DNA of 64,000 nt from Gemmatimonadota bacterium (lineage in GTDB: Bacteria > Gemmatimonadota > Gemmatimonadetes > Longimicrobiales > Gaopeijiaceae): positions 1 to 64,000 of the forward strand of contig JBBEBG010000031.1 of assembly GCA_040882465.1 (NCBI GenBank). Reading direction: 5' to 3'. Made by a program: the position numbers and the translations under genes. Below the pieces are notes generated by a model that saw only the letters and a list, made by a program, of their open reading frames with translations, ran no database searches and was not told where the DNA came from. The stretch's first letter is position 1, and each line of letters starts with the position of its first letter. Of the stretch, positions 23,568 to 61,740 are shown in pieces.

Positions 23568-25025
23568 TCAAGAACGGCGATTTCGTAGGCTTTCGAGCCG
23601 GTCTAGCGCCGTGCCGATGCGAGCCATCGCCCGGTCCCTGCCGAGAACCATCAACACCTCGAAGATCCCCGGGCTCACCGCTCGCCCCGTGACCGCTACC
23701 CGCAGCGGGTGGATGAGCTTCGCCGCACCCTCCCCCCGTTCCTCCGCCAGTGTTCTCAGTGCGCGCTCCAGCGCCGCGCCTTCCCAGGTCTCGATTTCGC
23801 CGAGTTTCTCCTGCAACGCGAATAGCCGCGCCGTCGCGCCCTCGAGGTCGGGCAACCAGAAGTCCGCCTCCGCCTCCGGGTCGTATTGGGGCGGATCCAG
23901 AACATAGGCGCGCGACTGTTCGGCCAGCTCGGTCAGACTCCGCGACCTGGGCTGGAGAAGGCGCACGAGGCGTGCGAACCGCTCCGGCTCCGACTCGATC
24001 CAGGCCTCGGTTCGCTCGCGTTCCCCCGGCGGGAGGCTCTCGACCAGGAGAGGCGCCAGTTCGGCCGGAGATTTCCGCGCCAGATGCTGTCCATTCAACC
24101 ATTCGAGCTTCTTCGTGTCGAAGACGGAGCTCTTCTTGAGGATTCTGTCCAGCGAGAATCGTGCCACGAGTTCGTCCCGGGTGAGCACTTCTTCGTCCGT
24201 TCCGGGAGACCATCCAAGCAGGGCAAGGAAATTCACCATCGCCTCGGGGAGAATCCCCTGCCCCGCATATTCCCCGATCGCGGTCGCCCCATGCCGCTTG
24301 GAGAGACGTTTTCCGTCGGTTCCCAGGATCATCGGCACGTGCGCGAATCCGGGGACCGGGTGCCCCAACGCCTCGTAAATGAGGATCTGCTTCGGAGTGT
24401 TCGAGATGTGGTCGTCCCCCCGGATCACGAGGTTGATCCGCATCTCCGCGTCGTCCGAGGCGACGGCGAGATTGTAGGTCGGAGTGCCGTCGGTTCGAAG
24501 GAGAACGAGGTCTTCGATATCCGCGTTTCGGAACCGGGTTTTCCCATGGACCCGGTCCTCCCAGACCGTCTCCCCATCGGGGATCCGAAAACGAACCGCA
24601 TGCGGCTCTCCCGCCGCGGCTTTTTCCTCCGCTTCGCCGGGGCGCAGCGCTTCCGCCGCCTCCCGAGGGAAGCGGAGCCCCCGGGTCGGGTGGTCCACCC
24701 GAAGTCGGACCAACTCGTCGGGCGTCGTGAAGTCTCGGTATGCCGCACCCCGTTCCAGGAGGGCGGCCACGTCGGCCCGGTGGCGATCTATCCCCAGGCT
24801 CTGGAAGAAGGGTCCCTCGTCCCAGTCGAGGCCGAGCCAGCTGAGTCCGGCCAGGATCGCCTCGACCATCTCTTCCGACGAACGTTCCTGGTCCGTGTCT
24901 TCGATCCGAAGGGCGAAGACGCCGCCTTCCTTGCGCGCGAGGAGCCAGTTGAAGAGGGCGGTGCGGGCCCCCCCGACGTGGAGAAATCCGGTGGGCGACG
25001 GAGCGAAGCGGAGGCGAAGGGTCAC
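23568..25025 (-). CDS. gltX: Glutamyl-tRNA synthetase
   Basis: A 485-aa class I synthetase. HIGH-type motif in [25 protein letters not shown]-type motif [23 protein letters not shown] in the nucleotide-binding half; a C-terminal anticodon-binding region. The GTG at 25025 overlaps the ispG stop (GTGA). It charges tRNA-Glu, and also tRNA-Gln if no GlnRS exists. Length is normal. Confidence 0.95.
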
Positions 25026-41371: not shown

Positions 41372-43502
41372 ATGAAGTGCATGACGAAGTGCCGCCTCGC
41401 CCTCGCGGGAGGCCTCGGCACGATTCTGAGCGGACCGGCCCTCGCCGCGCAGGAGGCGCCGCGATCGGACACCGTCCTCTACCTTCTCGCACCCATCCAG
41501 GCGACCGCCGCCCGGGAGCGGGCCACCGCACCCCCGGTCGCGACGATCACGGTGGATCCGGATCTGACGAAGAGGACGCCGGGCGAAAATCCATATGACC
41601 TGATGCGGCGCGTGGCCGGGCTGGAAGTCCACGACCAGGGCCAGGGTCGGGGTTTCGCGTCGAACGTCGTACTCCGCGGGTTCACGGCCGATCACTCGAG
41701 CGACGTCCTTTTGGTCGTGGATGGCGTCCCCGTGAACCTCCCCGTCCATGGGCATGTGGAAGGTTATGCGGACTGGAACTTCCTCTTCCCGGGGCGATGA
41801 GCTCACTCCGGGTCATCCATGGTCCGGCGAGCCCCCTTCACGGGGATTTCTCCATCGCCGGAGCGGTGGGGCTCTTCGCCCGATCCGATGCCGAAGGGAT
41901 CGAGGGGAGTCTCTCGGCCAGCGGGTTCGGCGACGCGTCCGGTTGGATCACGGCGGGTCGGCGCGGGGCCGAGGGCGGTGGACTCGTCGGGCTGGACCTC
42001 CGGCGGGTCGAAGGGTGGCGCCAGAATAGCGACCGGCGGATTGCAAGCCTCCTCGCACGCGGATGGCGACGTTTGGGGGATGGTCGAATCGAAGGCGGGC
42101 TCGCGGTCCACGGGGCCGACTGGGGGTCGCCCGGCTTCGTCTCGACGACGGACTTCGAGAGTGGGACCCTCGAGGAGCCCGCGGGCCGGACGAATGACGG
42201 AAGGCAGGCGCGCGTCGTCGCGCACGGCCGTTACGCCGCCCCGGTCGGGGACGGAAAATTCGTACAGGTGATGGGGGGGTCTGGTCGGACTGGGAGCTCT
42301 TCCTCACCACCCCGGGGCACGAGGACGCCTTCGGGAATCCCTATCAAACCGGAGAGGCCGACCGGCGCTGGGGTGCCGGGACCGGGGTCGAAGTCTCGTG
42401 GATTCCACCGTTCGGGGAGTTTACCCTCGGAACCTCCCTTCGGACGGACCGGTCGGAGTACGACCGGGACCGGACCCTACGCCGTCGGATGGTCGAAGAA
42501 GAGCTCGCGCTCGATGCGGAGCACACGGCGGCCGGCGTCTTCGTGCGCTGGCGTCGCACCTTCCTGGATCGGGCGGGGCTCGATTTCGGCGCGCGCCTCG
42601 ATCACCTCAAAGTCCGAAGCTTCAATCGGATGGGATTCGACGGGAACATCGTCGCCGAGAGCGCGAATCCCGAAGATCCCTACCCGATCTCCTTCCATGT
42701 GATCGGGGAACAGGGACCCGTCGGCGAGTGGGTGGACGGCAGCACGACCGTCCTCAGTCCAAAGCTCGGCGCGCGATTCGGCCTGAACGACCGGTGGAGC
42801 CTCATGGCCTCCTCGAGCCGGGGATTCCGGAGCGCGGTTGGCGTGTTGGGCGACCCGGACCGTCCGCCCGTCCTCGCCTGGGCGCAAGAGATCGGCCTCC
42901 ACTACGAGCGGCCGGGGGTGGAGAGCCACCTCGCCCTCTTCCGAACCGATGTGACCAACGAACGAATCCAGGATCCGATTACGCTGGAGATCGGCTCGTC
43001 CGGGTCGAGCGTCCGCCAGGGGATCGAGGTGACCTTCGCCTACCAGCTTCCGATCGGACTCCCGCCATCGGGGCGTGGAACGGTGACCAGGGCCCAGCTA
43101 TCCGGACAATACGCGGACGCCCATCACGATCACGGGGACGATGGCTCGGGAGAGCCTGCGCCTGAAGGAGTCGAGCCCGCTTCCGGACAACGGGTGCCCG
43201 GAATCGCGCGGTATCTCGCACAGCTTTCGGCGGCATTCCCGCTCCGCGAAGGCATCGAAGGACGTGTCGAGTGGAGAGTCACCGGACCGTGCGTGCCGGT
43301 CGGCGAGTCCGGCGTCACGACCAATTCTTTCTCCCTCCTCGACCTCGGTGTGGCCTTCCCGATCCGGGGGCGGTTCTTGGTGGATCTCGAGGTGCGAAAC
43401 GTCCTCGATAAGGTTTACCCGGAGATGCGGTCCTCTGGATACGTGAACCCCGGAGCGCCCCGCAGTATCGGTCTCACGGTCCATTACGTCAGCGGGAATT
43501 GA
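41372..43502 (+). pseudogene. TonB-dependent receptor with His-rich loop, two frameshifts
   Basis: Three frames together give a complete outer-membrane receptor: signal peptide and plug (41372-41790: LMRRVAGLEVHDQG, VVLRGFTADHSSDVLLVVDGVP), early barrel (41795-42279: RVIHGPASPLHGDFSIAG), and barrel to the end (to 43502: LRTDRSEYDRDR, closing with SIGLTVHYVSGN). Frame 1 stops at 41798; one extra G in the G4 run at 41791-41794 would rejoin it. The second break is at the G7 run 42273-42279, again rejoined by one extra G. A periplasm-distal loop reads ADAHHDHGDDGSG, a metal-like pattern. Role inferred as copper or zinc uptake. Either inactivated or mis-assembled. Confidence 0.85.
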
Positions 43503-43531: not shown

Positions 43532-44111
43532 ATGAAGAAGCAGGTAGTCGCCAGCACAGTGGTCGCCTTCCTCACCCTTGCCGGATGCGACGACTCGCCG
43601 ACCGGTCCCGATGGGTACGCCACCGAGGACCTCATCGTGCAGCTCGCAGTCTCGCCCCACCACTTCCACATCAGGGAAACGCCCGGCGTGTTCACGGTGA
43701 GTGGCGGGGATCCGTCCCTCCGACGACCAGGTGAAGGTCATGCTCGAGGTGGAGGAACCGCTCGCGGTCGTTCGCGCTCATTCCAGCGCCGGAGGGTACC
43801 AAGTCGAGTTCGAAGCCTTCCCGGGCCACATCCATGCGGGCGAAGAATCCAGCCTGACTTTTTGGTTCGCGGAGGAGGGGGAGGCACACGCGCCGAGCGC
43901 CGAACAGGTGACCGGGCTCGCTCCGACCATCCTGGTCGGCGTCAACGGGTCGGCGGGGAGCTACACCGCCTTCGAGCCGGAAGCCGGGATGTACACCGCC
44001 CTGCACACCTTCACGACCGCGGCAACCATTCCCGTGACGATCCCGTACTTTGGACAGGATCAGGTTCTGCACGACTATACGGTCAACGTGATCGTCCATG
44101 CGCCGCATTGA
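43532..44111 (+). pseudogene. Metal-cluster lipoprotein, one frameshift
   Basis: Starts MKKQVVASTVVAFLTLAGCDD after GGAG, a lipoprotein signal with lipobox LAGC. The frame runs through LAVSPHHFHIRETPGVFTVSGG and then is lost; continuation in the next frame is clear (RPSDDQVKVMLEVEEPLAVV to TVNVIVHAPH). Removing one G from the run at 43706-43709 rejoins them. The restored protein is about 190 aa, has several His (HHFH, PGHIHAG, EAHAP), and looks like a periplasmic metal-handling protein with a beta-sandwich. No family identified. Confidence 0.75.
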
Positions 44112-44179
44112 CCAGCACTGCCTTGACGCGGGACGGTCGTATGACATGAATCCCCGCCAACCTTAATAAGGAGAAGCCG

Positions 44180-44575
44180 ATGATGACCCGCTTGAAAGGG
44201 AGCCCGCTAGCCGTGGTCCTGGTGGCAGCCCTTGTCCCCGTTCTCGGTTCGACCGCGGGAGGCGCCGAGCGACACCTCGCCCTCCTCGGATCCGAGCCGG
44301 CCGCCGACTCCACGGTCGCCTCACCGACGGAGATCACCCTCTGGTTCACCCAGGCGCCACAGCCCGGGACGACCCAGATTCGCTTGCTGACCTCCGAGGG
44401 TGCCCTCGTTCCCACGGGTGAAGCGACCGCGGATCCGGAGGATGCGACGGCCTTCAGCGCCAAGGTCGAGCGGGGCCTCGCCCCCGGACGTTACTCCGTG
44501 GCCTGGCGAGCCATGGCGGCCGACGGCCATGTCGTAAGTGCGGAGTTCGATTTTGGGGTTCGGACCGCCGACTGA
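44180..44575 (+). CDS. CopC-domain periplasmic copper protein
   Basis: A 131-aa protein with signal peptide and a CopC domain. His sits near the mature N-terminus (GGAERHLALLGSEPAADSTV), and the closing motif AWRAMAADGHVVSAEFDFGV contains the Asp-Gly-His that binds Cu(II) in CopC. Core segment PTEITLWFTQAPQPGTTQIR. It follows the lipoprotein gene in the same direction after AGGAG. This domain is the best evidence that the whole cluster handles copper. Confidence 0.85.
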   Translation: MMTRLKGSPLAVVLVAALVPVLGSTAGGAERHLALLGSEPAADSTVASPTEITLWFTQAPQPGTTQIRLLTSEGALVPTGEATADPEDATAFSAKVERGLAPGRYSVAWRAMAADGHVVSAEFDFGVRTAD

Positions 44576-44623
44576 GCTGAGAACGCGGATCACACTCGGG
44601 GTTGCAGCGCACCGCGAACGCGG

Positions 44624-46048
44624 TCAATCCAGGGGCGCGGACTCGGGAAGGAAGCCATCGTCGCGGTACTTCCTGAGCTTTCGGTAGAGAGTCCGGCGGT
44701 TGACGCCCAGGATCTCGGCGGCGCGCGCCTGATGCCATCCCACGTCTTCGAGGACCGCGAGGATGTGCTCCCGCTCCAGACGATCCAGATCCCAGCGCCC
44801 GAGCCTCGCTTGGCTCAAGTGCTCCGAGAGGCCCCCGAACGCTTGCTCCTGTCCCCCCGCCGGCTCGAACGGCAGGGTGCGCGCCCCACGATGCAAGATC
44901 ATCGCCCGCTCGATGGAATGCTCGAGCTCGCGAACGTTTCCGGGCCAGTCGTGGGCCATCATGCGAGAAAGTGTTTCCGGGAGGATGTGCGGTGGCTCGA
45001 CACCGTGCTCCTCCGCGAATCGAAGGCGGAACGCGTTAGCCAGGAGCGGGATGTCTTCGCGACGTCTCCGAAGCGGCGGCACCACGATCGGGAAGACATT
45101 GAGCCGGTAATACAGATCTTCCCGAAAGTGTCCTTTGCGCACGAGCTCGCCCAGATCTTCGTTCGTCGCGGCCACGAGCCGAAAGTCCACGGGAACCTGC
45201 TCGGTGCTTCCAACGGGGGTGATCGTCCGTTCTTGCAGGACGCGCAGGAGCTTCACCTGAGTCGAAGGGGCAAGCCCACTCACCTCGTCGAGAAGAAGCG
45301 TCCCTCCTTTCGCGGATTCGAAGAGCCCTCGCTTGGCCTGCACCGCCCCGGTGAAAGCGCCCCGCACATGGCCAAAGAGCTCCGACTCGAGAAGTGTCTC
45401 GGTTAGCGCGGAGCAGTTGGCGGGAATGAAAGGCCGGCGCGCGCGTTCGGAGGCGTCATGAATCGCGCGGGCCACAAGCTCTTTGCCGGTCCCGGTCTCT
45501 CCGACGATCAGAACGTTCGCCCGAGTGGGTGCGACTCGCGCGATGAGATCGAAAACCCTCTGCATGGCCGCCGTATTCCCGATGATCCTCGACCGGGTGT
45601 CGTCCGAGAGGCGCGTGCGAAGCTGGGCGACCTCCCGCCTCAGATCGGTCTCCTCGATCGCGCGCCGCACCGTGAGGAGGAGCTCATCGGTTCCGAACGG
45701 CTTGCTGAGGTAGTCGAAGGCTCCGAGCTTCATCGCTTCGACCGCCGTATCCACCGACCCGAATGCGGTCATCACGATGAACTGTGCGTCGGTCTGCGTC
45801 GCCGGCGCCGCCGCGAGAACGTTCATCCCGTGCATTCCGGGAAGGTTCAAGTCGAGTAGTACGACGTCGAAGAGGCTGGATTCCAGACGCTTCAGGCCCT
45901 CTTCTCCGGAAGAAGCGGCGCTGACCTGGAAGCCCTCCTCGTCCAGCGTCTCGCAAAGAAATGCGCGCAGGACCTCTTCGTCCTCCACGACCAGCACACG
46001 GGGCCGAAGAGGTGAAGCGCCATCCGATTCCAACGGGCGGACCGTCAT
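44624..46048 (-). CDS. NtrC-family sigma-54-dependent response regulator
   Basis: A 474-aa three-domain activator. Receiver (residues 15-130) with phospho-Asp in VVLLDLNLPGMHG; AAA+ domain with Walker A GETGTGKELVARAIH and the sigma-54-contacting loop VRGAFTGAVQAKRG; Walker B GGTLLLDEVSG; C-terminal Fis-type HTH (DVGWHQARAAEILGVNRRTL). It activates sigma-54 promoters after phosphorylation. It is the last gene of the hsp20-SDR-kinase-RR-kinase-Usp run, 6 nt after Usp, and several sigma-54-type promoters lie in the same region. Confidence 0.95.
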   Translation of the reverse strand: MTVRPLESDGASPLRPRVLVVEDEEVLRAFLCETLDEEGFQVSAASSGEEGLKRLESSLFDVVLLDLNLPGMHGMNVLAAAPATQTDAQFIVMTAFGSVDTAVEAMKLGAFDYLSKPFGTDELLLTVRRAIEETDLRREVAQLRTRLSDDTRSRIIGNTAAMQRVFDLIARVAPTRANVLIVGETGTGKELVARAIHDASERARRPFIPANCSALTETLLESELFGHVRGAFTGAVQAKRGLFESAKGGTLLLDEVSGLAPSTQVKLLRVLQERTITPVGSTEQVPVDFRLVAATNEDLGELVRKGHFREDLYYRLNVFPIVVPPLRRRREDIPLLANAFRLRFAEEHGVEPPHILPETLSRMMAHDWPGNVRELEHSIERAMILHRGARTLPFEPAGGQEQAFGGLSEHLSQARLGRWDLDRLEREHILAVLEDVGWHQARAAEILGVNRRTLYRKLRKYRDDGFLPESAPLD

Positions 46049-46054
46049 CGATGT

Positions 46055-46990
46055 CTAACCTTCGTCCTCCCGGTCCGGCGAGCACACCGCGAGCACCGCC
46101 GTCTCTGAGCCCCGGATCACCTTGTCGGCCACGCTCCCAACGAAGAAGCGCCCGACCGCCCCGCGGCCCCGTGTCGAGAGGGCGATCAAATCCACATCCA
46201 AGTGGGCGCAGCTCTCCAGGAGGGAGCGCGCGACGTCGGTGCTCTCCTTGATCAGCAGCTCCACCCGACCCATCCGGTCCGCCCGCAATCTCTCCCCCAG
46301 ACGCTCCAGGTAACGCCGCGCCCGCATCTCTTCGTCGCGGAGAGGGTCACGTCCGGAGTCGGCGTTCGGGACCGGAAGCGGAGGGACGCTCACCGGCCGG
46401 TGGAGAATGGTCGCAAGAGTGACTCTTCTCTCATTCTCGGACAGGATCCGAGGAAGGACGACGAGGATCTCCTCACTCGCGAGGGAACCATCGAGCGGAA
46501 CGAAGACGTGCCGCGGGTAGCTCTCGTCCGCGAAGACACGCGACGCATCCGTGCCGGCCCGCAAGAGCAGAAGGGGGATCGGAGCAGTCCTCAGGAGTTG
46601 GTCCGCCACGCTCCCGAACCATGCGCGCTCCCATGCCCCCCGGCCGTGCGTCGTAAGGACGATGAGGCTCACCTTGAGCTCTCCCGCCAACCCGACGAGC
46701 GACTTCGCGGTCGGTCCAACCCGCACGTGCGCCGAAACATCGAGAGCCCCCGGCTCCGCGGAGATGCGGGACTTCACTTCTTCGAGGTAGGCGCTCGCCC
46801 GAGCCTCCTCGTCTTCGATCCAGCGAGCCGCCAAGTCCATGGCGTCCACGGCCAAAGCGGCGGGCGGGAGGTTCGACACGACGCGAGCGAGATGCAGTCC
46901 GATGCCGTGGCGCGCCGCCAACCTCGCGGCCGGACCGGTGGCCGCCTCGGCGAGCGCCGAGCCGTCCAACGGCACCATGATTCCTCTCAT
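46055..46990 (-). CDS. Tandem-domain universal stress protein
   Basis: A 311-aa protein with two UspA domains (about 1-145 and 155-311). Both end in the ATP-binding pattern: LTTHGRGAWERAWFGSVAD and LSTRGRGAVGRFFVGSVADKV. Tandem Usp proteins are induced by low oxygen, starvation or stationary phase in several phyla. ATG 46990 overlaps the kinase stop (ATGA). Confidence 0.92.
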   Translation of the reverse strand: MRGIMVPLDGSALAEAATGPAARLAARHGIGLHLARVVSNLPPAALAVDAMDLAARWIEDEEARASAYLEEVKSRISAEPGALDVSAHVRVGPTAKSLVGLAGELKVSLIVLTTHGRGAWERAWFGSVADQLLRTAPIPLLLLRAGTDASRVFADESYPRHVFVPLDGSLASEEILVVLPRILSENERRVTLATILHRPVSVPPLPVPNADSGRDPLRDEEMRARRYLERLGERLRADRMGRVELLIKESTDVARSLLESCAHLDVDLIALSTRGRGAVGRFFVGSVADKVIRGSETAVLAVCSPDREDEG

Positions 46991-48627
46991 GGGAAGGCCC
47001 GACGAGAATGGGGCACCGTGAAGTGAAAGGTGCTTCCGCGGCCGGGCGCGCTATCCACCCAGATCCTTCCTCCATGCCCTCCGACGATCTCGTGGGCGAT
47101 GGCGAGCCCGAGCCCAGCCCCGCCCTTCCGCGTCTTGTCGGCCTGCCAGAACGGATCGAAGAGGTGGGCGAGGTCCTCCGCCTCGATTCCAGGGCCGGTA
47201 TCCTCGACCGACACGACCGCCTCGTCCTCGCCGTCGCGCACACGAATGGACACGCTACCTCCGGGCGGCGTGAACTTCAGCGCGTTCGAAAGGAGATTCG
47301 AGATGACCTGTCCGATCCTTCCCGCATCAATTTCCAGAGAAGGCGGCACCGACGAAAGATCCACTTCAAGCCTGATCCCGGCCTCCGTTGCCGGGCCGCG
47401 GAATTGTTTCACCGTCCGGGCGACCACGGGACCCAGTCGAGCTTGATGGCGATCCATCGTGAAGTGCCCGGCCTCCGCCCGTCCAACCGCGAGCAGGTCT
47501 TCGACCAGCCGCACCATGGACCTCGCGGAACCCCGGATCATCTCGAGGTGCGCTCTCGTGCGCGATGCCTCGCCCTCCGGCTTCTCCAGAAGGCGTTGAA
47601 CCACCATGACGATGGCCGCCAGCGGATTCCCCAGGTCATGCGAGACCATGGAGAGGACTTCGTTCCGCATGCGAACCGCTTCCTGAGCGGCCTGGTAGAG
47701 CCGGGCGTTCTCGAGCGCCATCGCGATGTCGGTGCCGAGATCCCGCGCGAGGGACAGATCTCGCTCGTCGAATGGCCGGCGATGTCCCGAGCGGCCGAGA
47801 AGGAGGAAGCCGCGAACCTTCCCGCGGACCTCCAGAGGGACGAGCGCCACCGATCCCGTATCCACGCCGCGCAAGATATCCAGGTGCGGCCCGCCGGCGG
47901 TGAGCTCGCTCAGCGCTGCCGGCGTCGCGATTCGGCGGAGCTGGGGCGCGGCTTCTTCGAGGACCCGGGCGATCAGCGACGGTTCCCCCGGCATCGAAGG
48001 AAGGTCGAGGAGGAGGCGGAGCCGCGCCTCCTCTCCGTTTCCCCGGTGAAAGACGTCGGCCGCACGCCGATCCGGCCCCGGATCGCTGAGGGAGATCCAG
48101 CTCCAGTCTGCGAAGCCGGGCACGGCGACCCGGGCGGCGATCCCGAGGACGGTGTCCGGTTCGAGGGACGAGGCCAGGGCGCGGCCCGCGTCCGCGAGAA
48201 GACGCTGTGCTCTCTCGGCACGCCACTGCCGAATCGCGTACCGGATCGTTCGCTCGAGGAGCTGGGGATCGAGCCTTCCCTTCTCCAGGAACTCCGCGGC
48301 CCCCGCGTTCATGAGGGCGCGGTCGAGCTCGGGGTCTCGACTCCCGGTGAGGACCATTACGGGCACATGGATGTGGCGGGCCGTGGCTTCCCCGAGAAAG
48401 TCGAGACCGTCGCGGGCGCCGAGCCGGAAGTCGAGGAGGCAAACGTCGAACGTGCGTTCTTCCAGCTGGGCGATCCCCTCCTGGAAGGACCGGGCCCATT
48501 CCAGCCGGTAATTCCCTTCCGGGACCCGCGCGAGGAGGTCCCGGGTCAACAGGTAGTCTTCCTCATCATCCTCGACGAGGAGGACTCTAATCGCGTCGGA
48601 CGCGTCCGAAGAGGTAGTCTGCTTCAT
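46987..48627 (-). CDS. Receiver-GAF-histidine kinase
   Basis: A 546-aa sensor kinase with an N-terminal receiver (phospho-Asp in VCLLDFRLGARDG), a GAF domain (about 145-300), HisKA (MVSHDLGNPLAAIVMVVQRL, phospho-His) and HATPase (NLLSNALKFTPPGG, VEDTGPGIEAEDL, GGAGLGLAIAHEIVGGHGG). It has no membrane segment. A receiver ahead of the kinase suggests input from another kinase, probably via the short response regulator encoded just upstream. Its ATG overlaps that gene's stop (ATGA). Confidence 0.93.
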   Translation of the reverse strand: MKQTTSSDASDAIRVLLVEDDEEDYLLTRDLLARVPEGNYRLEWARSFQEGIAQLEERTFDVCLLDFRLGARDGLDFLGEATARHIHVPVMVLTGSRDPELDRALMNAGAAEFLEKGRLDPQLLERTIRYAIRQWRAERAQRLLADAGRALASSLEPDTVLGIAARVAVPGFADWSWISLSDPGPDRRAADVFHRGNGEEARLRLLLDLPSMPGEPSLIARVLEEAAPQLRRIATPAALSELTAGGPHLDILRGVDTGSVALVPLEVRGKVRGFLLLGRSGHRRPFDERDLSLARDLGTDIAMALENARLYQAAQEAVRMRNEVLSMVSHDLGNPLAAIVMVVQRLLEKPEGEASRTRAHLEMIRGSARSMVRLVEDLLAVGRAEAGHFTMDRHQARLGPVVARTVKQFRGPATEAGIRLEVDLSSVPPSLEIDAGRIGQVISNLLSNALKFTPPGGSVSIRVRDGEDEAVVSVEDTGPGIEAEDLAHLFDPFWQADKTRKGGAGLGLAIAHEIVGGHGGRIWVDSAPGRGSTFHFTVPHSRRAFP

Positions 48628-49085
48628 CTCCCGTGGGGAGGAAGAGCCACGGTCTCGAACCAGTAGTCTTTCAGCACGCCGACGGCCTGAACCAGTCCGT
48701 CAAAGGTGACCGGCTTCGTCACATAACCGCTGACGCCGAGCTCGTAGCTGCGGGCCACGTCCTCTTCCGCGTCCGAGGTGGTCACCACCACGACCGGGAT
48801 GGAGCGAAGCTGCGAGTCCCGCTTGATGGCCTCCACGACCTCGAATCCGGTCATTCCGGGCATCTTCAGATCCAGGAAGATGATGCCGGGGCGCGGGGCG
48901 GCTCCCGGCTCCGCGTACGACCCCCTGCGACCGAGGAAATCGAGGCAATTCTCCCCGTCGAAAACGAAATAGAGTGGATTCTCGAGACCGCAGGCGTCGA
49001 AGGCCTCCCGCATCAACAGGCGGTCTTCCTCGTCGTCATCGGCTATTAGCACCGCGACCAGCCTTCGCCCATGCCCCGCCATCAT
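48624..49085 (-). CDS. Single-domain response regulator (Rcp1-like)
   Basis: A 153-aa CheY-fold protein with no output domain. It has LIADDDEEDRLLMREAFDA, phospho-Asp in GIIFLDLKMPGMTGFEVV and VVVVTTSDAEEDV. The insert after the first helix (ENCLDFLGRRGSYAEPG) is typical of Rcp1-type regulators paired with phytochrome-like kinases. It probably accepts phosphate from the kinase at 49082-50767 and passes it on. Overlaps both neighbours by 4 nt. Confidence 0.92.
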   Translation of the reverse strand: MMAGHGRRLVAVLIADDDEEDRLLMREAFDACGLENPLYFVFDGENCLDFLGRRGSYAEPGAAPRPGIIFLDLKMPGMTGFEVVEAIKRDSQLRSIPVVVVTTSDAEEDVARSYELGVSGYVTKPVTFDGLVQAVGVLKDYWFETVALPPHGR

Positions 49086-50767
49086 CCTCGGCCTTCTGCC
49101 CGGGACTGCGCCGGCATAGGTATTGTTACGAGAAAGGTGGCGCCGAGCCCCGGCTCAGCCGAGGCCGAAATCACGCCCCCGTGGTGTTCGACGATTTTCC
49201 GGCAAATGGCCAATCCTATCCCTGTCCCGTCATATTGCCCGCGCCCGTGGAGACGCTGGAAGACTTCGAAGATGCGGTCCCGATACTTCTCATCGAATCC
49301 GATCCCGTTGTCGCGAACCTGGATTTCGACGCCCGGGCGTGGATCCTGCTGGATCGTGCCGCTCACATCCACGACGGGCGGTACGCCCTCCCGGCGGTAC
49401 TTGAGCGCATTCCCGAGGAGATTCTGAAAGAGGAGCCGCATCTGAAGCGGATCCGCCTCGACCGCCGGAAGCGTCGCGACGTCTATCCTGCCACCGCTTT
49501 CGTTCAAAGGGATCTCGAGATCGGCCGTCACCTCCCGGACGAGCGCTGTGAGATCCACCCGTTCGAATGGGCTCCCTCGACTCGTAACGCGTGCGTACGC
49601 GAGCAAGTCGCCGATGAGGTCCGACATCCGCTCGGCGGCACCGAGCATCCGTTCGAGATAGACCCGGTTCTGATCCTCCAGTCGGTCGCCGGCCTCGACC
49701 CGCAAGCGGTCCCCGAAGGCTCGAATCTTTCGAAGCGGTTCCTGGAGATCGTGGGATGCCACGGAAGCGAACGCCTCGAGCTCCCGGTTCGAGCGCCCCA
49801 GCTCCAGGGCCTCTCGCTCGAGTGTGTCCTCGTAGTCCGCTTGCGCGCTCACGTCTCGGAGGACGACGGAATAGATCCGCTCCCCGTTGACCTCCAGCTT
49901 CGAAATCGAGGCTTCGGCGGGGAACTCCTCTCCGTCTTGTCTTTGCCCGTGGATCTTCCCTCGCTCTCCCATTCGGCGTGCCGGTTCCTCACCGCTGCCG
50001 AAGGCGTCGAGGTGCTCCCGATGCTTCCTCCTGAAACGAGGAGGAATGAGGAGTTCCAGCGGCTGGCCCAGGACTTCCTCCGCACGGTAACCGAAGATCT
50101 CCTCCGCCCCCTCATTGAAGAGGATGATATTCTGACCCTCATCCACCGAAATCACCGCGTCCACCGAGATCGAGACGATTCCGGCGAAGCGGGCCTCGGA
50201 AGCGCGAAGCGCTTTTTCGGCCCGCGAGCGTTGGATCTCGGCCGCCAGCCAGACCGCCATCAAGCCGACCAGCTCTCGCTCCGCCTCCGAAGGCTGAATC
50301 GGCCCTTCTCCCCGCGTCCCGAAGACGATCGTTCCATAGATCTCTCCGTCGATGAGAAGGGGCGCCTCATGTCTTGCGGCGAGACCGGCCTCACCCGGCC
50401 GGAATGGCAAACGGGCATCCATTTCCCCGAGCGATCCATGAGAGGCTTCAGCGACGGCCCCGTCCTCCCCGTGACGTACGAGGAAGCCCGCATCCGCTCC
50501 AAAACAAGCGCACCCCAGCCGGAGGAGCTGCGTGGTGCGGCCTGGGAGGTCCAGCGATGAGTCGGAAGCGATTGCGCAGAGTCCGCGCAGCGCCACCACG
50601 ATCGGCTCAGAACTGTTGTCCGGCGGACCCTCCGCGAGATCGCGGCCTGAATCGAGGTGGATCGGCGAATTGTCGGTTTTCACAGGCGGCCCAGTGGGGA
50701 GGCGAGCGCAATAGACTATAGGGTGGCTCGCCGCATGCAAGGGGAGCCGACGGAGGCGAAAGGTCAT
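49082..50767 (-). CDS. GAF-PAS sensor histidine kinase (phytochrome-type HisKA)
   Basis: A 561-aa cytosolic kinase. GAF-like domain (about 55-195), PAS (about 200-325, VDAVISVDEGQNIILFNEGA) and a HisKA of the bacteriophytochrome type (VASHDLQEPLRKIRAFGDRL), then HATPase (NLLGNALKYRREG, VRDNGIGFDEKY, GTGIGLAICRKIVEHHGG). I see no bilin-binding Cys in the GAF domain, so light sensing is not supported. The ATG at 50767 overlaps the SDR stop as ATGA; a GTG at 50683 is an alternative. Confidence 0.9.
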   Translation of the reverse strand: MTFRLRRLPLHAASHPIVYCARLPTGPPVKTDNSPIHLDSGRDLAEGPPDNSSEPIVVALRGLCAIASDSSLDLPGRTTQLLRLGCACFGADAGFLVRHGEDGAVAEASHGSLGEMDARLPFRPGEAGLAARHEAPLLIDGEIYGTIVFGTRGEGPIQPSEAERELVGLMAVWLAAEIQRSRAEKALRASEARFAGIVSISVDAVISVDEGQNIILFNEGAEEIFGYRAEEVLGQPLELLIPPRFRRKHREHLDAFGSGEEPARRMGERGKIHGQRQDGEEFPAEASISKLEVNGERIYSVVLRDVSAQADYEDTLEREALELGRSNRELEAFASVASHDLQEPLRKIRAFGDRLRVEAGDRLEDQNRVYLERMLGAAERMSDLIGDLLAYARVTSRGSPFERVDLTALVREVTADLEIPLNESGGRIDVATLPAVEADPLQMRLLFQNLLGNALKYRREGVPPVVDVSGTIQQDPRPGVEIQVRDNGIGFDEKYRDRIFEVFQRLHGRGQYDGTGIGLAICRKIVEHHGGVISASAEPGLGATFLVTIPMPAQSRAEGRG

Positions 50768-51534
50768 TTCGCCGTGTACCCTCCGTCGATCACGAGCTCG
50801 GCCCCCGTGACGAAGGACGACTCGTCCGAGGCGAGGTAGAGGACGCCGTAGGCGATCTCATCCGGCTCTCCAACCCGCCCGATCGGGTGGAGCGCCGCGA
50901 GATCCTTGCGGCCCTGTTCCCGCTCGATGCCGGAATCCTTCAGGTGCTTCTCGACCATCGGCGTCCAGATATACCCCGGATGCACCGAGTTCACGCGAAT
51001 CCCGTCCGGCGCGTAGATCAGCGCGTCCGTTTTCGTCATGAGCCGGACGGCCCCTTTCGAAGCGTGATAGGGGGGCACGTCCGGCCCGCCGACGAGGCCG
51101 TAGATGGAGGACAAGTTGACGATGCTTCCGCCGCCCGCGCGCTTCATCGAGGGGATCGTGTGCTTCGTGCAGAAGAAGACGCCCTTCACGTTCGTCCGCT
51201 GCACGCGGTCCCACTCGGCCTCTTCGATCTCGTGCGTAGGCTTATTCGGGCCCGCGATGCCGGCGTTGTTCACAAGAACCGTGATCTCGCCCAGCTTCTT
51301 GGCGACTTCCCCGAGGACGCGGGCGCACTCGGCCTCGTCGCCGACGTCGAGGTGCCAATAGCGTGCGACTCCGCCCGCGTCCAGAATCTCCCGGACGAGC
51401 GCCCCTCCCGCTGCGTTCTGGACGTCGGTCACTGCCACGCTTGCCCCCTCCCGTGCGAGCATGCGGCAACACGCGGCCCCGATGCCGACGGCGCCGCCGG
51501 TGACCACCGCGACCTTCCCGGCGACTCTTCCCAT
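50764..51534 (-). CDS. Short-chain dehydrogenase/reductase
   Basis: A 256-aa SDR. NAD(P) motif VVTGGAVGIGAACCRMLA (TGxxxGxG), NAG motif VNNAGIAGP, active-site Ser in VNLSSIYG, and YxxxK in YHASKGAVRLM. Glucose-1-dehydrogenase/3-alpha-HSD-type, substrate unknown. It lies between hsp20 (57 nt upstream) and the kinase gene, which its stop overlaps by 4 nt. Confidence 0.92.
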   Translation of the reverse strand: MGRVAGKVAVVTGGAVGIGAACCRMLAREGASVAVTDVQNAAGGALVREILDAGGVARYWHLDVGDEAECARVLGEVAKKLGEITVLVNNAGIAGPNKPTHEIEEAEWDRVQRTNVKGVFFCTKHTIPSMKRAGGGSIVNLSSIYGLVGGPDVPPYHASKGAVRLMTKTDALIYAPDGIRVNSVHPGYIWTPMVEKHLKDSGIEREQGRKDLAALHPIGRVGEPDEIAYGVLYLASDESSFVTGAELVIDGGYTAK

Positions 51535-51591
51535 CTTGCCGCTCCTTTCCCCGGGCCGATTCGGGCGCCCGGTCCATTGAATCGGTCCGGC

Positions 51592-52068
51592 TTACTTCGG
51601 CTTCGGTTTCGATGCGATCTGAATCTTTCGGCCCCGGGCTTCGGGACGTTTTTCGATCTCGACCTTGAGCACCCCCTGGTCGAAGCTGGCCTTGATCTTT
51701 TCGGCGTTGGCCGTCGCGGGAAGCACGAAAGTGCGCTCGAACGAGCCATACTGGCGCTCCGAGATCCTGACCCGCTCGTTCGACTCCTCCCTCACGACCT
51801 TCTTCTCGCCCCGGATGCAGAGCGTGTTCCCATCGGCCTGGATGTCCACGTCTTTCGACTCGACTCCCGGTAGCTCCGCCGTGACGACGTATTTCCCGTC
51901 CTCTTCCGTGAAGTCCGCTCGGGGAGCCCACATCGAGGCCCCGCCGGCGGCTTCGCCGGACCAGGGGCTCACGCCCATCCGTTCAAATAAGTCTTCGAAG
52001 GCTCCGAGGTCGCGCCAGGGAGTGAAGATGCCGCTCGCGCGGCGGCCCACCGCCGGTACCTGTGCCAT
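51592..52068 (-). CDS. Hsp20 / alpha-crystallin small heat shock protein
   Basis: A 158-aa chaperone. Alpha-crystallin domain (about 50-145) with FTEEDGKYVVTAELPGVESK and the closing motif ANAEKIKASFDQGVLKVEI; the I-x-I tail is replaced by GRKIQIASKPKPK. It holds unfolding proteins. Head of the minus-strand run leading to the kinases and the NtrC regulator. A sigma-54-type promoter lies about 110 nt upstream. Confidence 0.95.
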   Translation of the reverse strand: MAQVPAVGRRASGIFTPWRDLGAFEDLFERMGVSPWSGEAAGGASMWAPRADFTEEDGKYVVTAELPGVESKDVDIQADGNTLCIRGEKKVVREESNERVRISERQYGSFERTFVLPATANAEKIKASFDQGVLKVEIEKRPEARGRKIQIASKPKPK

Positions 52069-52178
52069 GATCCATCTCCTTTGTCCGAGGGGGCCGGAGG
52101 CCCCGCTTGGTCGTTCCTGCGGATCGCCGAGGGTGCGCTCGCTCCAGGGCGATCGTGCCCGCTGGATGGCCCCCTACC

Positions 52179-52194
52179 GTGGAAGGACCGTGCC
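52179..52194 (-). promoter_or_regulatory. Sigma-54-type promoter facing hsp20
   Basis: Minus strand TGGCACGGTCCTTCCA. It matches TGGCACG-N4-TTGC except for C in place of the G of the -12 GC. The -24 box is perfect. It lies about 111 nt upstream of the hsp20 ATG and points at it. The -12 mismatch falls in an important position, so this is the weakest of the group. Confidence 0.5.
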
Positions 52195-52329
52195 AGGACG
52201 GCGCCCGCGGATCGCCAAGTGTCCGCCCGAGGCGGCCACGCGCCGGCGATTGGCCCCGAGGCTCGGGATGGGCCCCCGGCACCCGCAGAGCGGGTGACTT
52301 CCCCAGGGTTTCCGGCGAGTGAACCGAGC

Positions 52330-52342
52330 GGACAGAATGTCC
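52330..52342. promoter_or_regulatory. Palindrome, candidate enhancer site
   Basis: GGACA-GAA-TGTCC, a perfect inverted repeat with 3-nt spacer. It is midway between two divergent sigma-54-type promoters (each about 120-150 nt away). A similar full palindrome was not seen upstream of atpD or the dehydrogenase-cytochrome gene. Binding by the NtrC-class regulator is an inference. Confidence 0.4.
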
Positions 52343-52454
52343 CGGGGCGGGACGCAAGGGTCACGGTTCCGCACGGCGCAAGCCGGTTCGTTCGGTTCCT
52401 CGTCGACGACCCGCACCGAGCACGATCGGCGGGCCGGTGGCACGAGGATAGGGC

Positions 52455-52470
52455 AGGCACGCAGCTTGCA
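52455..52470 (+). promoter_or_regulatory. Sigma-54-type promoter of the CBS gene
   Basis: AGGCACGCAGCTTGCA matches the sigma-54 consensus TGGCACG-N4-TTGC(A/T) at all fixed positions but the first T. -24 GG and -12 GC are correctly spaced. It lies about 82 nt upstream of the ATG at 52552. Confidence 0.65.
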
Positions 52471-52551
52471 ACCGACGGCACCTGCCCTGGTGCTCGAACC
52501 GGGACTGCCGTGCCCTCCAAGACGAAGACCCCCGCCAACCCGGAGTACCGA

Positions 52552-53076
52552 ATGACGCTCGTCAAGGAGATCATGCAAAAGGACGTCGTCACGATTTCGC
52601 CCGGTGCGCCGGTCTCGGAGCCGATTCAGAAGCTTGGCACGTCCAAGATCACGGGGCTTCCCGTGGTGGATGCTAAGGGAATTCTCGTGGGAGTCATCTC
52701 GTCCCAGGACATCATGCGGCTCGCCGGGGACCTCGGCCAGGTACCGGAGGCGGTGCGCTGGGGACTCCAGGTCGCCGGACCATTCCGCGACCGCGCCGTC
52801 GTGGATTCTTCCATCGAGGGAGAGTTTTTCGCGTACTACGTGACCCCGCGGGGCGGATTCGTGGACCTTCGCGACCGGATTCGCGAACTCCCCGGCGACG
52901 TCTTCGAAGGTTACTCCGACGAGGACATCATGACTCGTGATCCGGTCACGGTGGACGCCGATGCGACCCTCCGCGAACTGGCGCGGCTTCTCGGGGAGAA
53001 GAACATCCGGCGGGCTCTCGTTCTTCAGGCGGGAAAGCTCGTCGGAATCGTGACCGTGACCGACATCCTGAGCGCG

Positions 53077-53091
<15 letters not shown>
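52552..53091 (+). CDS. CBS-domain pair protein
   Basis: A 179-aa protein with two CBS domains: residues 1-65 (VKEIMQKDVVTISPGAPVSE, KITGLPVVDAKGILVGVISS) and 115-175 (DEDIMTRDPVTVDADATLRE, VGIVTVTDILSA). Stand-alone CBS pairs bind adenine nucleotides and sense energy state. ATG 52552 follows CGGAG; upstream open frame is noncoding promoter DNA. It overlaps the convergent P-type ATPase gene by 15 nt. Confidence 0.9.
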
Positions 53092-57817
<4,726 letters not shown>

Positions 57818-57837
<20 letters not shown>

Positions 57838-58162
57838 CCCCGACGCGGGGACTGATGGGGCGGAGGATCGAGCGCGGCGGTCTCGGTTCGAGGCGGCACT
57901 TTCACGTAAGGCAGACCGAAAGCTGCGGGCCCGCCGGGAGGGCGATCGGGGGATCTGGTTCGGGCTCGGGATGATGGGGCTCGTCGGGTGGGCCGTCGCA
58001 ATCCCCACCATTGCCGGAATCGCGATCGGTGTCTGGTTGGACAGAAGGCTGGGAGGGCCGGGCGGAATCTCCTGGACCCTGACTGGACTCGTGATCGGCG
58101 TCGGGGCGGGTTGCCTGAACGCCTGGTTCTGGATCGCAAGGGAGATGGAGGAGAAACGTTGA
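57818..58162 (+). CDS. atpQ: N-ATPase AtpQ (AtpI-like) membrane protein
   Basis: A 114-aa protein with a charged N-terminus and two helices (GLVGWAVAIPTIAGIAIGVWL, LTGLVIGVGAGCLNAWFWI), as in AtpI/AtpZ-like genes of N-ATPase operons, and thought to help assemble the c ring. Start TTG 57818 inside atpC, or GTG 57824. Its stop overlaps the atpR TTG. Confidence 0.8.
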
Positions 58163-58431
58163 CGGACCTCCTGGTTGGCCTTCTCGTCGGGTGCCTTCTC
58201 GGCGCCTTCTTCTTCGGGACGCTTTGGATCACCGCTCGCGGCATCCCGCAGGCGAGGTGGCCGGCCGCACTCGTCCTGGGAAGCTACCTCGCCCGCATGG
58301 GTATCCTGGGCGTCGCTCTGTATGCCCTCGCGCGCTCGGCCGGCGCCGGCGCGCTCGCCTTCGCGCTCGCCGGACTTCTGATCACCCGGCAGATCTTCAT
58401 CGCGAAGCTGGCACCCCCCAGGGTGGGATAG
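58159..58431 (+). CDS. atpR: N-ATPase AtpR membrane protein
   Basis: A 90-aa protein with three helices (LLVGLLVGCLLGAFFFGTL, ALVLGSYLARMGILGVALYA, LAFALAGLLITRQIFIAK). The single Arg in the second helix is typical of AtpR. Start is TTG 58159, overlapping atpQ by 4 nt (TTGA). Confidence 0.8.
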   Translation: MTDLLVGLLVGCLLGAFFFGTLWITARGIPQARWPAALVLGSYLARMGILGVALYALARSAGAGALAFALAGLLITRQIFIAKLAPPRVG

Positions 58432-58443
58432 GAGACGCGGCCG

Positions 58444-59139
58444 ATGCAACTGACCCCGGACCAGGTGGTTTATTGGGAGTGGGGGTTCGTCACGATCAAC
58501 GCAACCCTCGTCTTCACCTGGCTCAGCATGGCCGCAATGGTCGCGGCGGCGTGGATTGTCACCCGTACCCTCCAGACCGGACCTCGGGTCGGTCGTGGGC
58601 AGATCCTCCTGGAGATCATCGTGATGCAGATGCGGAAGCAGATTGGCGAAGTGGTTCCTGATGACCCCGACCGCTACCTCCCGTTCATCGGCACGCTCTT
58701 TCTCTTCATCTCCGTCTCGACGGTCCTCGGCGCCCTTCCGGGGGTCCACGTGGTTGCGGCCTCTCTCTCGACGGCCGCCGCGCTCGCGGCCTGTGTCTTT
58801 GCCGCCGTGCCGGTCTTCGGAATCTCTCGCACCGGGGTGAGTAATTACCTGCGGCACTACGTGCGTCCGAGCGCCTTCATGCTCCCGTTCCACGTCATCG
58901 GCGAGCTGTCACGCACCCTTGCCCTGGCGGTTCGCCTCTTTGGCAACCTGATGAGCGGGCGGGTGATCGTGGCCATCGTCCTCTCGGTCGTTCCGTTCAT
59001 TTTCCCGGCGCTCCTCGAGGCCTTCGGGCTTCTGATCGGAATCATTCAGTCGTACGTCTTTGCCATGCTCGCCCTGGTCTACGTCGCCTCGGGCGCCCGC
59101 TCACTTCAACAGGAGAAGTCATGGAATCGGTCGAGCTGA
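58444..59139 (+). CDS. atpB: N-ATPase subunit a
   Basis: A 231-aa membrane subunit of the ion channel. The essential Arg is in RTLALAVRLFGNLMSGRVIV. About five helices. It overlaps atpE by 19 nt. Confidence 0.92.
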   Translation: MQLTPDQVVYWEWGFVTINATLVFTWLSMAAMVAAAWIVTRTLQTGPRVGRGQILLEIIVMQMRKQIGEVVPDDPDRYLPFIGTLFLFISVSTVLGALPGVHVVAASLSTAAALAACVFAAVPVFGISRTGVSNYLRHYVRPSAFMLPFHVIGELSRTLALAVRLFGNLMSGRVIVAIVLSVVPFIFPALLEAFGLLIGIIQSYVFAMLALVYVASGARSLQQEKSWNRSS

Positions 59140-59396
59140 TCGCCGTGATCTCAATTGCCGTCGCCGGCCTGACCATCGCCATCGGAAGCATCGCTCCGGC
59201 GCTCGGTGAGGCCCGAGCGCTGGCCCAGGCGCTCCAGTCCATCGCCCAACAGCCGGACATGGCGAATACGGTGACCCGCACGCTTTTCGTGGGGATGGCC
59301 ATGGTAGAATCCACGGCGATCTATTGCCTCGTCGTCTCTCTCATCCTGCTCTTCGCAAATCCATTCTGGTCCTACGCGATCCAAGCCGGAGGCTGA
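59121..59396 (+). CDS. atpE: N-ATPase subunit c with two Glu ligands
   Basis: A 91-aa hairpin. The outer helix has the essential Glu in AMVESTAIYCLVV, flanked by Ser, Thr and Tyr as in Na+-binding c subunits; the inner helix has Glu in APALGEARALAQAL where classical Na+ types have Gln. A Glu in both helices is seen in N-ATPase c rings; B. pseudomallei N-type c rings were reported to be proton-coupled, so the ion cannot be set from sequence. Confidence 0.93.
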   Translation: MESVELIAVISIAVAGLTIAIGSIAPALGEARALAQALQSIAQQPDMANTVTRTLFVGMAMVESTAIYCLVVSLILLFANPFWSYAIQAGG

Positions 59397-59400
59397 GCCC

Positions 59401-60165
59401 GTGCGGATCGACTGGTTCACCTTCGTCGCGCAGCTCTTCAACTTCGCCCTCCTGGTCTGGCTCCTGAAACGCATCCTGTATCGGCCGGTTCTGGAGGCGA
59501 TCGCGCGGAGAGAGGAGGGGATCCAGGAACAACTCGAAGGGGCGCGCCGGATCCGGGAGGAAGCGGATACCGAGCGCGAGCAGCTTCGCGGGGAGCGAAA
59601 CGAGTTGGCGGAAACCGGTGCGGAATATCTGAGGAAGGCCGAAGCCGAGGCCGAGGCCCGCCGGAAGGAGCTCGCGGAGGAGGTTCGGGCGGAAGTCCGT
59701 GAGCTGAGGAGGGAATGGCAGGAGTCCCTTCGCCGCCAACGGTCCGCGTTTCTGGAGGAGCTTCGGCGCGCGATCTCGAAAGAGATGTATGGAGCGGTCC
59801 GGCGCGTCCTCGAAGAACTCGCCGACGCCGAGCTCGAGTCGCGTGCGGTCCGGGTCTTTCTCGGCCGCCTGGGCGAGCTCGGCGATGACGGGCGAAGGGA
59901 GATCGTCGAGGCCGCCGCCGCGGAAGGCGGTGCGATCCGCGTGCGCACCTCCTTCCCCCTCGCCCCCGAGCTGAGGAAGGCGTTGGGAGCTGACCTCGAA
60001 CGATGGATCGGGCAGCCGCTCGAGCTTCGCTTCGAACACGATCCGGAGCTTTCCCTCGGGATCGAGCTTCGCGCGGGCGACCGAAAGGTCGCCTGGAGCG
60101 TGGCGAGCTACCTCGATGCCCTCGAAGCCGAAGCGGCGAGCCGTCTGGAGGCCGAGACCAGATGA
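59401..60165 (+). CDS. atpF: N-ATPase subunit b (extended, delta-like C-terminus)
   Basis: A 254-aa stator. N-terminal helix [19 protein letters not shown], a long charged coiled coil (residues 35-150), and a C-terminal beta-rich part ([40 protein letters not shown]) that resembles the end of the delta subunit. N-ATPase operons lack atpH, and this extension may stand in for it. GTG start 59401. Overlaps atpA by 4 nt. Confidence 0.88.
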
Positions 60166-61730
60166 TAGGTCCCGACGCCGAGACGGCCGAACCACTTTCC
60201 GAGGCGGATCTGGCCGGCGCCCTGGGGCAAACGCTCGAAGCGGTGCGCCGCGCGCTGGAGGGCGTTCGTCCGGGGCCCGAGGTGCGGGAAATCGGTGTCG
60301 TCCGATCCGTGGGGCGTGGAACGGCTCGCATTGACGGCCTCTCGAGCGCTCGAGCCGACGAAGTGATTCGCCTTTCGGGCGGCGTGGACGCCCTCGTCTT
60401 CAACCTCGATCCGGATGAAGTCGGCGTCATTCTTCTCGGTGACGAGGAGCGCGTGGAGGCCGGCACGGAGGCCCACGCAACGGGACGCACCCTCCGGGTC
60501 CCCGTCGGAGAGGAACTCCTCGGGAGAATCGTGGATGGACTCGGCCGGCCTTTGGATGGGAAGCCCTCTCTCCGCTCCACGCGAGAGCGCCCCGTGGAGT
60601 CCCCGGCCCCGGGGATCCTCCAGCGCGGGCCGGTTCGCGTGCCACTCCAGACGGGGCTCAAGGTCGTGGACGCGCTGGTGCCCGTCGGACGGGGTCAGAG
60701 AGAGTTGATCGTCGGGGACCGGCAGACAGGGAAAACCTCGATCGCCACCGACGCGATCGTGAATCAGCGCGACGGGGACGTCGTTTGCATCTATTGCGCG
60801 GTCGGTCAGCGCAGCTCTTCGGTGGCCGGCGTCGTGGGGGAGCTTGGCCGTACGAATGCCCTCCGCCACACGATCGTGGTGGTCGCGGCCGGGGAGGATC
60901 CACCCGGCCTCCAATTCGTCGCCCCGTACGCGGCCATGGCCATGGCCGAGGATTTCATGGCTCAGGGAAAGGACGTTCTCGTCGTCTACGACGACCTCAC
61001 GCGGCACGCGCGCGCTTACCGGGAACTCTCCCTCCTCCTCCGGCGCCCGCCCGGGCGGGAAGGATACCCGGGGGACATCTTCCACGTGCACGCGCGACTG
61101 CTCGAGCGCTCGACCCGGATGCGGGAGGCGCACGGTGGAGGATCCATCACGACACTTCCGATCGTCGAGACGCAGGCCGGAAACCTCGCCGCTTACATCC
61201 CAACCAATCTCATCTCCATTACGGATGGACAGATCTATCTCTCCCCGGATCTCTTCCGCAGGGGTGTACTCCCCGCCGTTGATGTGGGGCGGTCGGTGTC
61301 ACGGGTGGGCGGCGCCGCCCAGCTCCCCGCCTACCGCGCCGTCGTTCGAGATCTGCGCGTGGCATACGCGCAGTTCCAGGAGCTCGAGGTATTCTCGCGC
61401 TTCGCCACGCAGCTCGATGAGGAGACCCGGCGGACGCTGGAGCGCGGGAGGCGCGTCCGCGAGGTCCTCAAGCAGGAGGAAAGGGCGCTCCTGGATGTGG
61501 CCGAGCAGATCTCGGTGCTCCTGGCCGCGACGGACGGCGTCTTCGATCGCGTTCCGCTGGAGCACATGGAAGAGGCCCAGGAGGACGTGCGCGCACGGGT
61601 CGGCGAGCGCCTCCCGGATCTCTGCCGCCATATTCGCTCGGGGGGCGAGCTCACCCCGGAGAGGGAGGCGGCACTCCGGGAGGTCGCCCTGGAGGCCGTG
61701 GCTCCGTGGATCGTAGAGGCTCTCGACTGA
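60162..61730 (+). CDS. atpA: N-ATPase alpha subunit
   Basis: A 522-aa nucleotide-binding subunit. Walker [18 protein letters not shown], Arg-finger region [14 protein letters not shown] (GGAAQLP), [21 protein letters not shown] 60162 overlaps the atpF stop (ATGA). A short N-terminal extension precedes the beta-barrel domain. In other N-ATPase operons atpG follows directly; here a PCMT-esterase gene intervenes. Confidence 0.95.
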
Positions 61731-61740
61731 GGCAAGGGTG

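Follow-up and report, generated by a model that had tools for sequence, protein, structure and literature searches.

Two genes diverge from the intergenic region 52069-52551 of the window (the whole 64,000-nucleotide stretch of Gemmatimonadota DNA analysed here), one for a small heat shock protein (hsp20) and the other for a two-CBS-domain protein. A first-pass annotation had placed a sigma-54 (-24/-12) promoter toward each of these genes, with a palindrome between them, and had suggested that this one site could serve both promoters. Is the region indeed a shared control element and, if so, which activator would use it? Comparisons within the genome and with relatives lead us to regard it as probably a bidirectional sigma-54 control region, in which a central dyad would be the enhancer for the NtrC-family regulator encoded at 44624-46048 and would serve both promoters.

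Elements of the intergenic region

The strings named in the first-pass annotation are all present in the region, as follows.

52180-52195, minus strand: sigma-54-type (-24/-12) candidate promoter toward hsp20, TGGCACGGTCCTTCCA, with CC for GC at -12
52329..52343, strand not applicable: main dyad, CGGACAGAATGTCCC, centre 52336, candidate UAS/enhancer and an instance of GGGAC-N5-GTCCC
52330-52342: perfect palindrome GGACAGAATGTCC, between both boxes
52349..52363: GGGACGCAAGGGTCA, a possible weak second site 20 bp from the main dyad, matching 7/10 core positions, with a poor right half
52455-52470, plus strand: sigma-54-type (-24/-12) candidate promoter toward the CBS gene, AGGCACGCAGCTTGCA

The CBS-side box has the GG at -24 and the GC at -12, 10 bp apart, that characterize sigma-54 promoters. 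The hsp20-side box has the GG and, as the first-pass annotation had noted, a mismatch at -12, where CC replaces GC. The 15-bp window dyad, CGGACAGAATGTCCC, fits GGGAC-N5-GTCCC at 9 of the 10 positions; counted from its centre, the GG(-24) of the CBS box is 120 bp away and that of the hsp20 box about 141-142 bp. The palindrome had been described as lying at enhancer distance from both promoters, and the measured values, 120 and ~142 bp, are indeed inside the usual enhancer range. The window dyad thus shows what is expected of a UAS, namely, a location ~80-150 bp from the promoter and repetition within one regulon. Plausible ribosome-binding sites, GGAG for CBS and AAAGGAGA for hsp20, precede the ATG start codons at 52552 and 52068, respectively.

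Singly, the palindrome and the sigma-54-like strings are weak, each within chance expectation. By chance alone, the window is expected to hold 1.7 copies of the palindrome at up to two mismatches, and when the 259-bp interval is resampled by a Markov model, 93% of the resulting sequences contain some dyad of 5+5 half-sites with a spacer of 3-7. Sigma-54-like strings with one mismatch number 56 genome-wide vs 120 for the reversed pattern and, hence, are rarer than the control. Because the elements are unremarkable when taken one by one, the claim rests on comparison. The window dyad also matches 11/12 positions of GGGACANNNTGTCCC, with a chance probability of ~0.0006 in the 259-bp interval; the window site helped to suggest this motif, so that independent support has to come from other loci and from relatives.

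Recurrence of the dyad in the genome and in relatives

The 300 bp upstream of the 56 sigma-54-like sites were scored against GGGACANNNTGTCCC. Six sites reach 11/12, and these make up three divergent pairs, the one in the window, C31:65749-/65936+ and C25:27682-/28042+, whereas the controls (downstream regions, reversed motif) never exceed 10. A fourth divergent pair, C25:32752-/32969+, belongs to the next-best group, at 10/12, and two more, with weaker boxes, are found at C31:72357-/72548+ and C25:39133-/39316+ (the CBS2/dodecin-PRTase-GroEL and RtcB/dodecin-GroEL pairs). Altogether, two contigs (C31 and C25) carry six divergent pairs of -24/-12 sites, with a GGGAC-N5-GTCCC dyad between the boxes. 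The genes on the two sides of these pairs, with dodecin and GroEL assigned by eye from the sequences, are the following.

hsp20 / CBS (window)
cytochrome c / AMP-binding ligase, then pyruvate dehydrogenase E1
second CBS protein / dodecin, phosphoribosyltransferase, GroEL
second hsp20 and BON protein / PRPP synthetase and phosphoribosyltransferase
PGA_cap protein on one side
RtcB / dodecin, GroEL

In the six inter-box intervals, GGGAC-N5-GTCCC is matched at 9, 10, 9, 10, 8 and 10 of 10 positions. The sum, 56/60, compares with 40-48 for the other 19 half-site orderings, and none of 2000 Markov resamplings of the six intervals reaches it (maximum, 50), with the caveat that the motif was derived partly from these six regions, so that the test is not fully independent. 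Perfect dyads number 11 in the genome; 3 are flanked on both sides by sigma-54 sites no more than 300 bp away, and the remaining 8 lack such sites. At the C25:27.7-28.0 kb pair, each promoter has its own nearest dyad, and therefore sharing is not universal or obligatory.

GGGAC-N5-GTCCC is often accompanied by a weaker second dyad, 20-21 or 32-34 bp off. In the average over 19 dyads, the next-best dyad score has maxima 20 bp to either side (+20 and -20). Individual loci with a clear second dyad are C31:65.87 kb, C25:27.8 kb, L030, L027, L043 and L055, with a distance of 20-21 bp, and C31:72.4 kb and C25:39.2 kb, with one of 32-34 bp. Helically spaced dyad pairs are typical of NtrC-family enhancers.

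Several candidates were set aside. The strict pattern GGACANNNTGTCC occurs at 5 places in the genome, and the four copies outside the window have no sigma-54 sites nearby. Predicted reading frames overlap the tandem perfect dyads at C27:41548/41579, which lack a sigma-54 site, and a dyad-like match at 24352 with a sigma-54-like string at 24151 is likely a chance occurrence. The full 13-mer GGACAGAATGTCC has an exact match in only 7 of the 96 genomes of the family and, therefore, is not the conserved unit.

Two stress-gene islands near divergent sigma-54 pairs, L097 (C25:22000-41900) and L057 (C31:64001-84000), hold second copies of hsp20, GroEL, dodecin and phosphoribosyltransferase genes, along with RtcB and uridine phosphorylase. 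In the former, a strong sigma-54-like site, TGGCATGTCGGTTGCA, precedes a gene for a small cysteine-rich protein (MAVCETCGNDYH...) at L097:11445 (C25:33444), with no good upstream dyad.

In the relatives, many of whose genomes are fragmented and, for those named here, are metagenome assemblies, we examined sigma-54-like sites around orthologs of the regulator or of the CBS protein, none of which were used to define the motif. A dyad with at most one mismatch is present upstream of 6 of 19 such sites and downstream of none of the 19, and permuted half-sites gave 0-2. The best dyads are 68-125 bp upstream of -24/-12 sites of genes for CBS proteins (L028, L030), cytochrome c followed by CBS (L025), USP (L041, L042, L043) and hsp20 (L055). 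In 8 of the 10 Gemmatimonadetes loci with CBS orthologs, a -24/-12-like site of >=9.7 bits precedes the coding match by 77-122 bp, and several of these loci also have the dyad; at L025, the site precedes the upstream cytochrome c gene rather than CBS directly, no dyad was found at L029 and L031, and neither element was found at L034. L028 and the corresponding locus of G074 also preserve the divergent hsp20/CBS arrangement itself, in which a perfect dyad is flanked by a box on each side. At L055 (G018:C73), where the regulator is more distant (56%), several composites of dyad and sigma-54 site surround the regulator, hsp20 and USP genes.

Footprinting, which had been proposed as a check of the first-pass annotation, is thus positive, with the dyad kept as a motif beside sigma-54 promoters both in this genome and in relatives. 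Its recurrence at divergent sigma-54 pairs also lends support to the earlier suggestion that one site could serve two promoters. With the same layout at five other sites of the genome and in relatives, the arrangement has the appearance of a true stress-regulon switch with shared control, and not of a chance match.

The hsp20 side, the gene run and the candidate activator

The hsp20 gene is the first of a seven-gene minus-strand run, hsp20-SDR-PAS kinase-receiver-receiver kinase-USP-NtrC regulator, that faces away from the CBS gene (Nmp refers to the Myxococcus xanthus system discussed below).

52552..53091, plus strand: two-CBS-domain protein (PF00571)
51592..52068, minus strand: hsp20, small heat shock protein (PF00011)
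50764..51534, minus strand: short-chain dehydrogenase (SDR), 57 bp after hsp20, probably in the same operon
49082..50767, minus strand: PAS histidine kinase in an NmpU-like position, 4-bp overlap with SDR
48624..49085, minus strand: stand-alone receiver in an NmpT-like position, 4-bp overlap
46987..48627, minus strand: receiver-GAF-HisKA kinase, NmpS-like, 4-bp overlap
46055..46990, minus strand: universal stress protein (USP) with two Usp domains, 4-bp overlap
44624..46048, minus strand: NtrC-family response regulator, 6-bp gap after USP, proposed binder of the dyad

Given that the hsp20-facing promoter heads a run that ends in the likely activator, the run would be autoregulated. The only sigma-54-like string found between 43900 and 51600 in a scan at 11 bits is on the plus strand (50724), so that none faces the genes of the run, and no combination of dyad and sigma-54 site that could belong to a separate promoter was found in the 3' neighbourhood of the regulator gene (44100-44700).

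Beyond the regulator end of the operon is part of a gene for a TonB-dependent receptor (42489-43502). On the other flank, a gene for a calcium-type P-type ATPase (53077-55851) is convergent with the CBS gene, the two gene ends overlapping, and is adjoined by an alternate (N-type) F1F0 ATPase operon (55775-63753; beta, epsilon, gene-1, A, alpha), at the start of which there is a sigma-54-like string (55974) and no dyad was found.

The bidirectional claim is least secure at the hsp20-facing promoter, which may be weak. At -12, the G of the GC is usually important, and GC is kept in seven homologous hsp20 promoters (the genome's own second copy, L028, L123, L124, L125, L126 and L127), one of which, L126, is identical to the window hsp20 box in its first twelve bases. 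With a matrix written from general consensus knowledge rather than fitted, the hsp20 box scores 12.2 bits vs 15.2 bits for the CBS box. These observations would fit a dyad that serves the CBS promoter only, next to a decayed or non-functional hsp20 box, with hsp20 and the signalling genes transcribed from another promoter, a scenario that we consider unlikely although it carries some weight. The hsp20 box, however, retains a perfect TGGCAC at -24, its position relative to the dyad is the same as in L028 (143 bp there vs about 141-142 bp in the window), and a scan for sigma-70-like promoters, weak for this phylum, found none in 44000-56200. Furthermore, hsp20 genes across the order commonly have sigma-54-like sites, often without the GGGAC dyad, and therefore sigma-54 control of hsp20 extends beyond this regulon. 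Position and homologs, then, argue for a promoter function of the hsp20 box. At L134, L142, L143, L144, L148 and L151, strong -24/-12 sites are located 49-92 bp upstream of hsp20, mostly with no GGGAC dyad; such dyad-free sites in other genomes suggest another activator.

Returning to the reading in which one enhancer serves both promoters, the product of 44624-46048 contains the receiver (PF00072), AAA+ (PF00158) and Fis-type HTH (PF02954) domains of the NtrC family, with GAFTGA at residue 230 and a nearly invariant recognition helix, NRRTLYRKL. The genome encodes one rpoN and at least 11 sigma-54 activators, so another of these could bind the dyad. That the dyad is a real sigma-54 enhancer bound by such a different NtrC-family activator, as the presence of dyad and sigma-54 composites in some genomes without a close ortholog (for example, G060) might also indicate, appears decidedly improbable to us. 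On C31 and C25, which between them carry all six divergent pairs, the 44624-46048 regulator (on C31) was the single sigma-54 activator to be detected, and its gene is linked to the genes at this locus and, in relatives, to USP, CBS and kinase genes. Moreover, perfect composites accompany its orthologs, which occur, at 54-75% identity, in 32 of the 153 other genomes of the order: they are present in 6/33 genomes with an ortholog vs 3/121 without (p 0.003, uncorrected for relatedness), and, again without correction for relatedness, the co-occurrence has p 0.01 when the present genome is left out and p 0.04-0.06 at looser cut-offs. Two of the exceptions, G061 and G101, are only 76-80% complete. 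The strict-pattern composite is absent in 22 of the 33 genomes that carry the ortholog. The co-occurrence test provides moderate support for the regulator assignment and, together with linkage and conservation, points to this protein as the one that would bind the dyad.

Chance assembly of two sigma-54-like strings and an unrelated palindrome in a GC-rich intergenic region is very hard to credit: every element is singly within chance expectation, but the same dyad lies in six divergent sigma-54 pairs, with 0/2000 resamplings reaching the observed sum, and recurs in independent relatives. It is equally implausible that the dyad is a repressor site of the heat-shock or metal type for both genes, given that, even though palindromes near hsp20 genes often are repressor sites (CIRCE and HAIR, for instance), this sequence is neither of the two, and its location 68-142 bp upstream of -24/-12 boxes, the frequent second copy at helical spacing and its presence at many sigma-54 promoters fit an activator.

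Known systems and the proposed regulon

The closest match among described systems is NmpRSTU of Myxococcus xanthus, an oxygen-limitation system (PMC6211767, PMC11841059) in which NmpR sites, GCGCA-N5-TGCGC, occur in pairs (PMC11841059). The likeness is one of gene order, domains and dyad geometry: in both cases, a sensor kinase, a receiver protein and a receiver-kinase come in the same U-T-S order with an NtrC-like regulator nearby, the regulator and kinases are in operons that are, or here would be, self-controlled, the promoters are of the sigma-54 type, CBS and USP genes are among the known or, here, proposed targets, and the dyads share the N5 geometry and, in Nmp, are bound in pairs. The components of an Nmp-type phosphorelay (kinase, receiver protein, kinase with an N-terminal receiver and NtrC-like regulator) lie in one cluster here. 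The differences are also apparent. The half-site is GGGAC instead of GCGCA; the 49082-50767 kinase has, according to Pfam, only PAS, HisKA and HATPase domains, and thus a PAS sensor in place of the heme protoglobin of NmpU, and GAF is present in the second kinase; the 48624-49085 protein (153 aa) has one Response_reg domain whereas NmpT has two. Chaperones, dodecin and RtcB are among the proposed targets, no cbb3 oxidase operon was seen, and one site would be shared between divergent promoters here.

Two other systems provide precedents in which one activator governs divergent sigma-54 promoters, and hence the mechanism as such is known. ZraR acts on two divergent sigma-54 promoters, zraP and zraSR (PMC4987338); there too, an NtrC-family regulator serves one promoter for a chaperone and another for its own two-component genes, but the system belongs to a different phylum, responds to zinc/envelope stress, involves a periplasmic chaperone and is confined to a single locus. 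The divergent operons orp1/orp2 of Desulfovibrio vulgaris, under DVU2106 (PMC3897727), similarly have two divergent sigma-54 promoters co-activated by one enhancer-binding protein from palindromic sites in between, but with two such activator sites plus IHF sites, cell-division genes as targets and a single cluster. The regulon, the motif and the repeated divergent layout appear to be new within the searchable literature, where we encountered no account of a Gemmatimonadetes regulon of this kind.

We propose that the phosphorylated 44624-46048 regulator would bind the dyad at 52329-52343 as a dimer and then as an oligomer, perhaps also occupying the weak second site 20 bp away, and that DNA looping would bring it into contact with sigma-54 RNA polymerase at the -24/-12 promoter of CBS (~120 bp rightward) or of hsp20 (about 142 bp leftward). 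Leftward transcription would take in hsp20, SDR, the PAS kinase, the receiver, the receiver-kinase, USP and the regulator, resulting in positive autoregulation. The six sites would form one regulon that includes two hsp20 genes, GroEL, dodecin, CBS, cytochrome c, phosphoribosyl enzymes, RtcB and others. By analogy with NmpRSTU, the signal might be oxygen limitation or energy stress. The elements, their recurrence and conservation, and the operon layout are seen directly in the sequence; this signal, the identity of the regulator that binds, the use of one site by both promoters and the strength of the hsp20 side are inferred.

More tentatively, at a likelihood that we would put slightly short of even, a whole stress regulon could be built of divergent sigma-54 pairs around central enhancers, with one oligomer, on one dyad or dyad pair, firing two promoters at several of the six sites. 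Partners such as hsp20 and CBS, RtcB and dodecin-GroEL, or cytochrome c and acyl-CoA ligase/PDH would then be co-switched, and the regulon's own kinase and regulator genes would be among the outputs.

From this analysis come a regulator, a motif and a set of targets that can be tested, all belonging to a sigma-54 stress regulon of a little-studied lineage. An Nmp-like phosphorelay is thereby connected with small heat shock proteins, GroEL, CBS proteins, USP and energy genes. Should both promoters of a pair indeed depend on the central dyad, the six pairs would be natural replicates for enhancer action split between two promoters.
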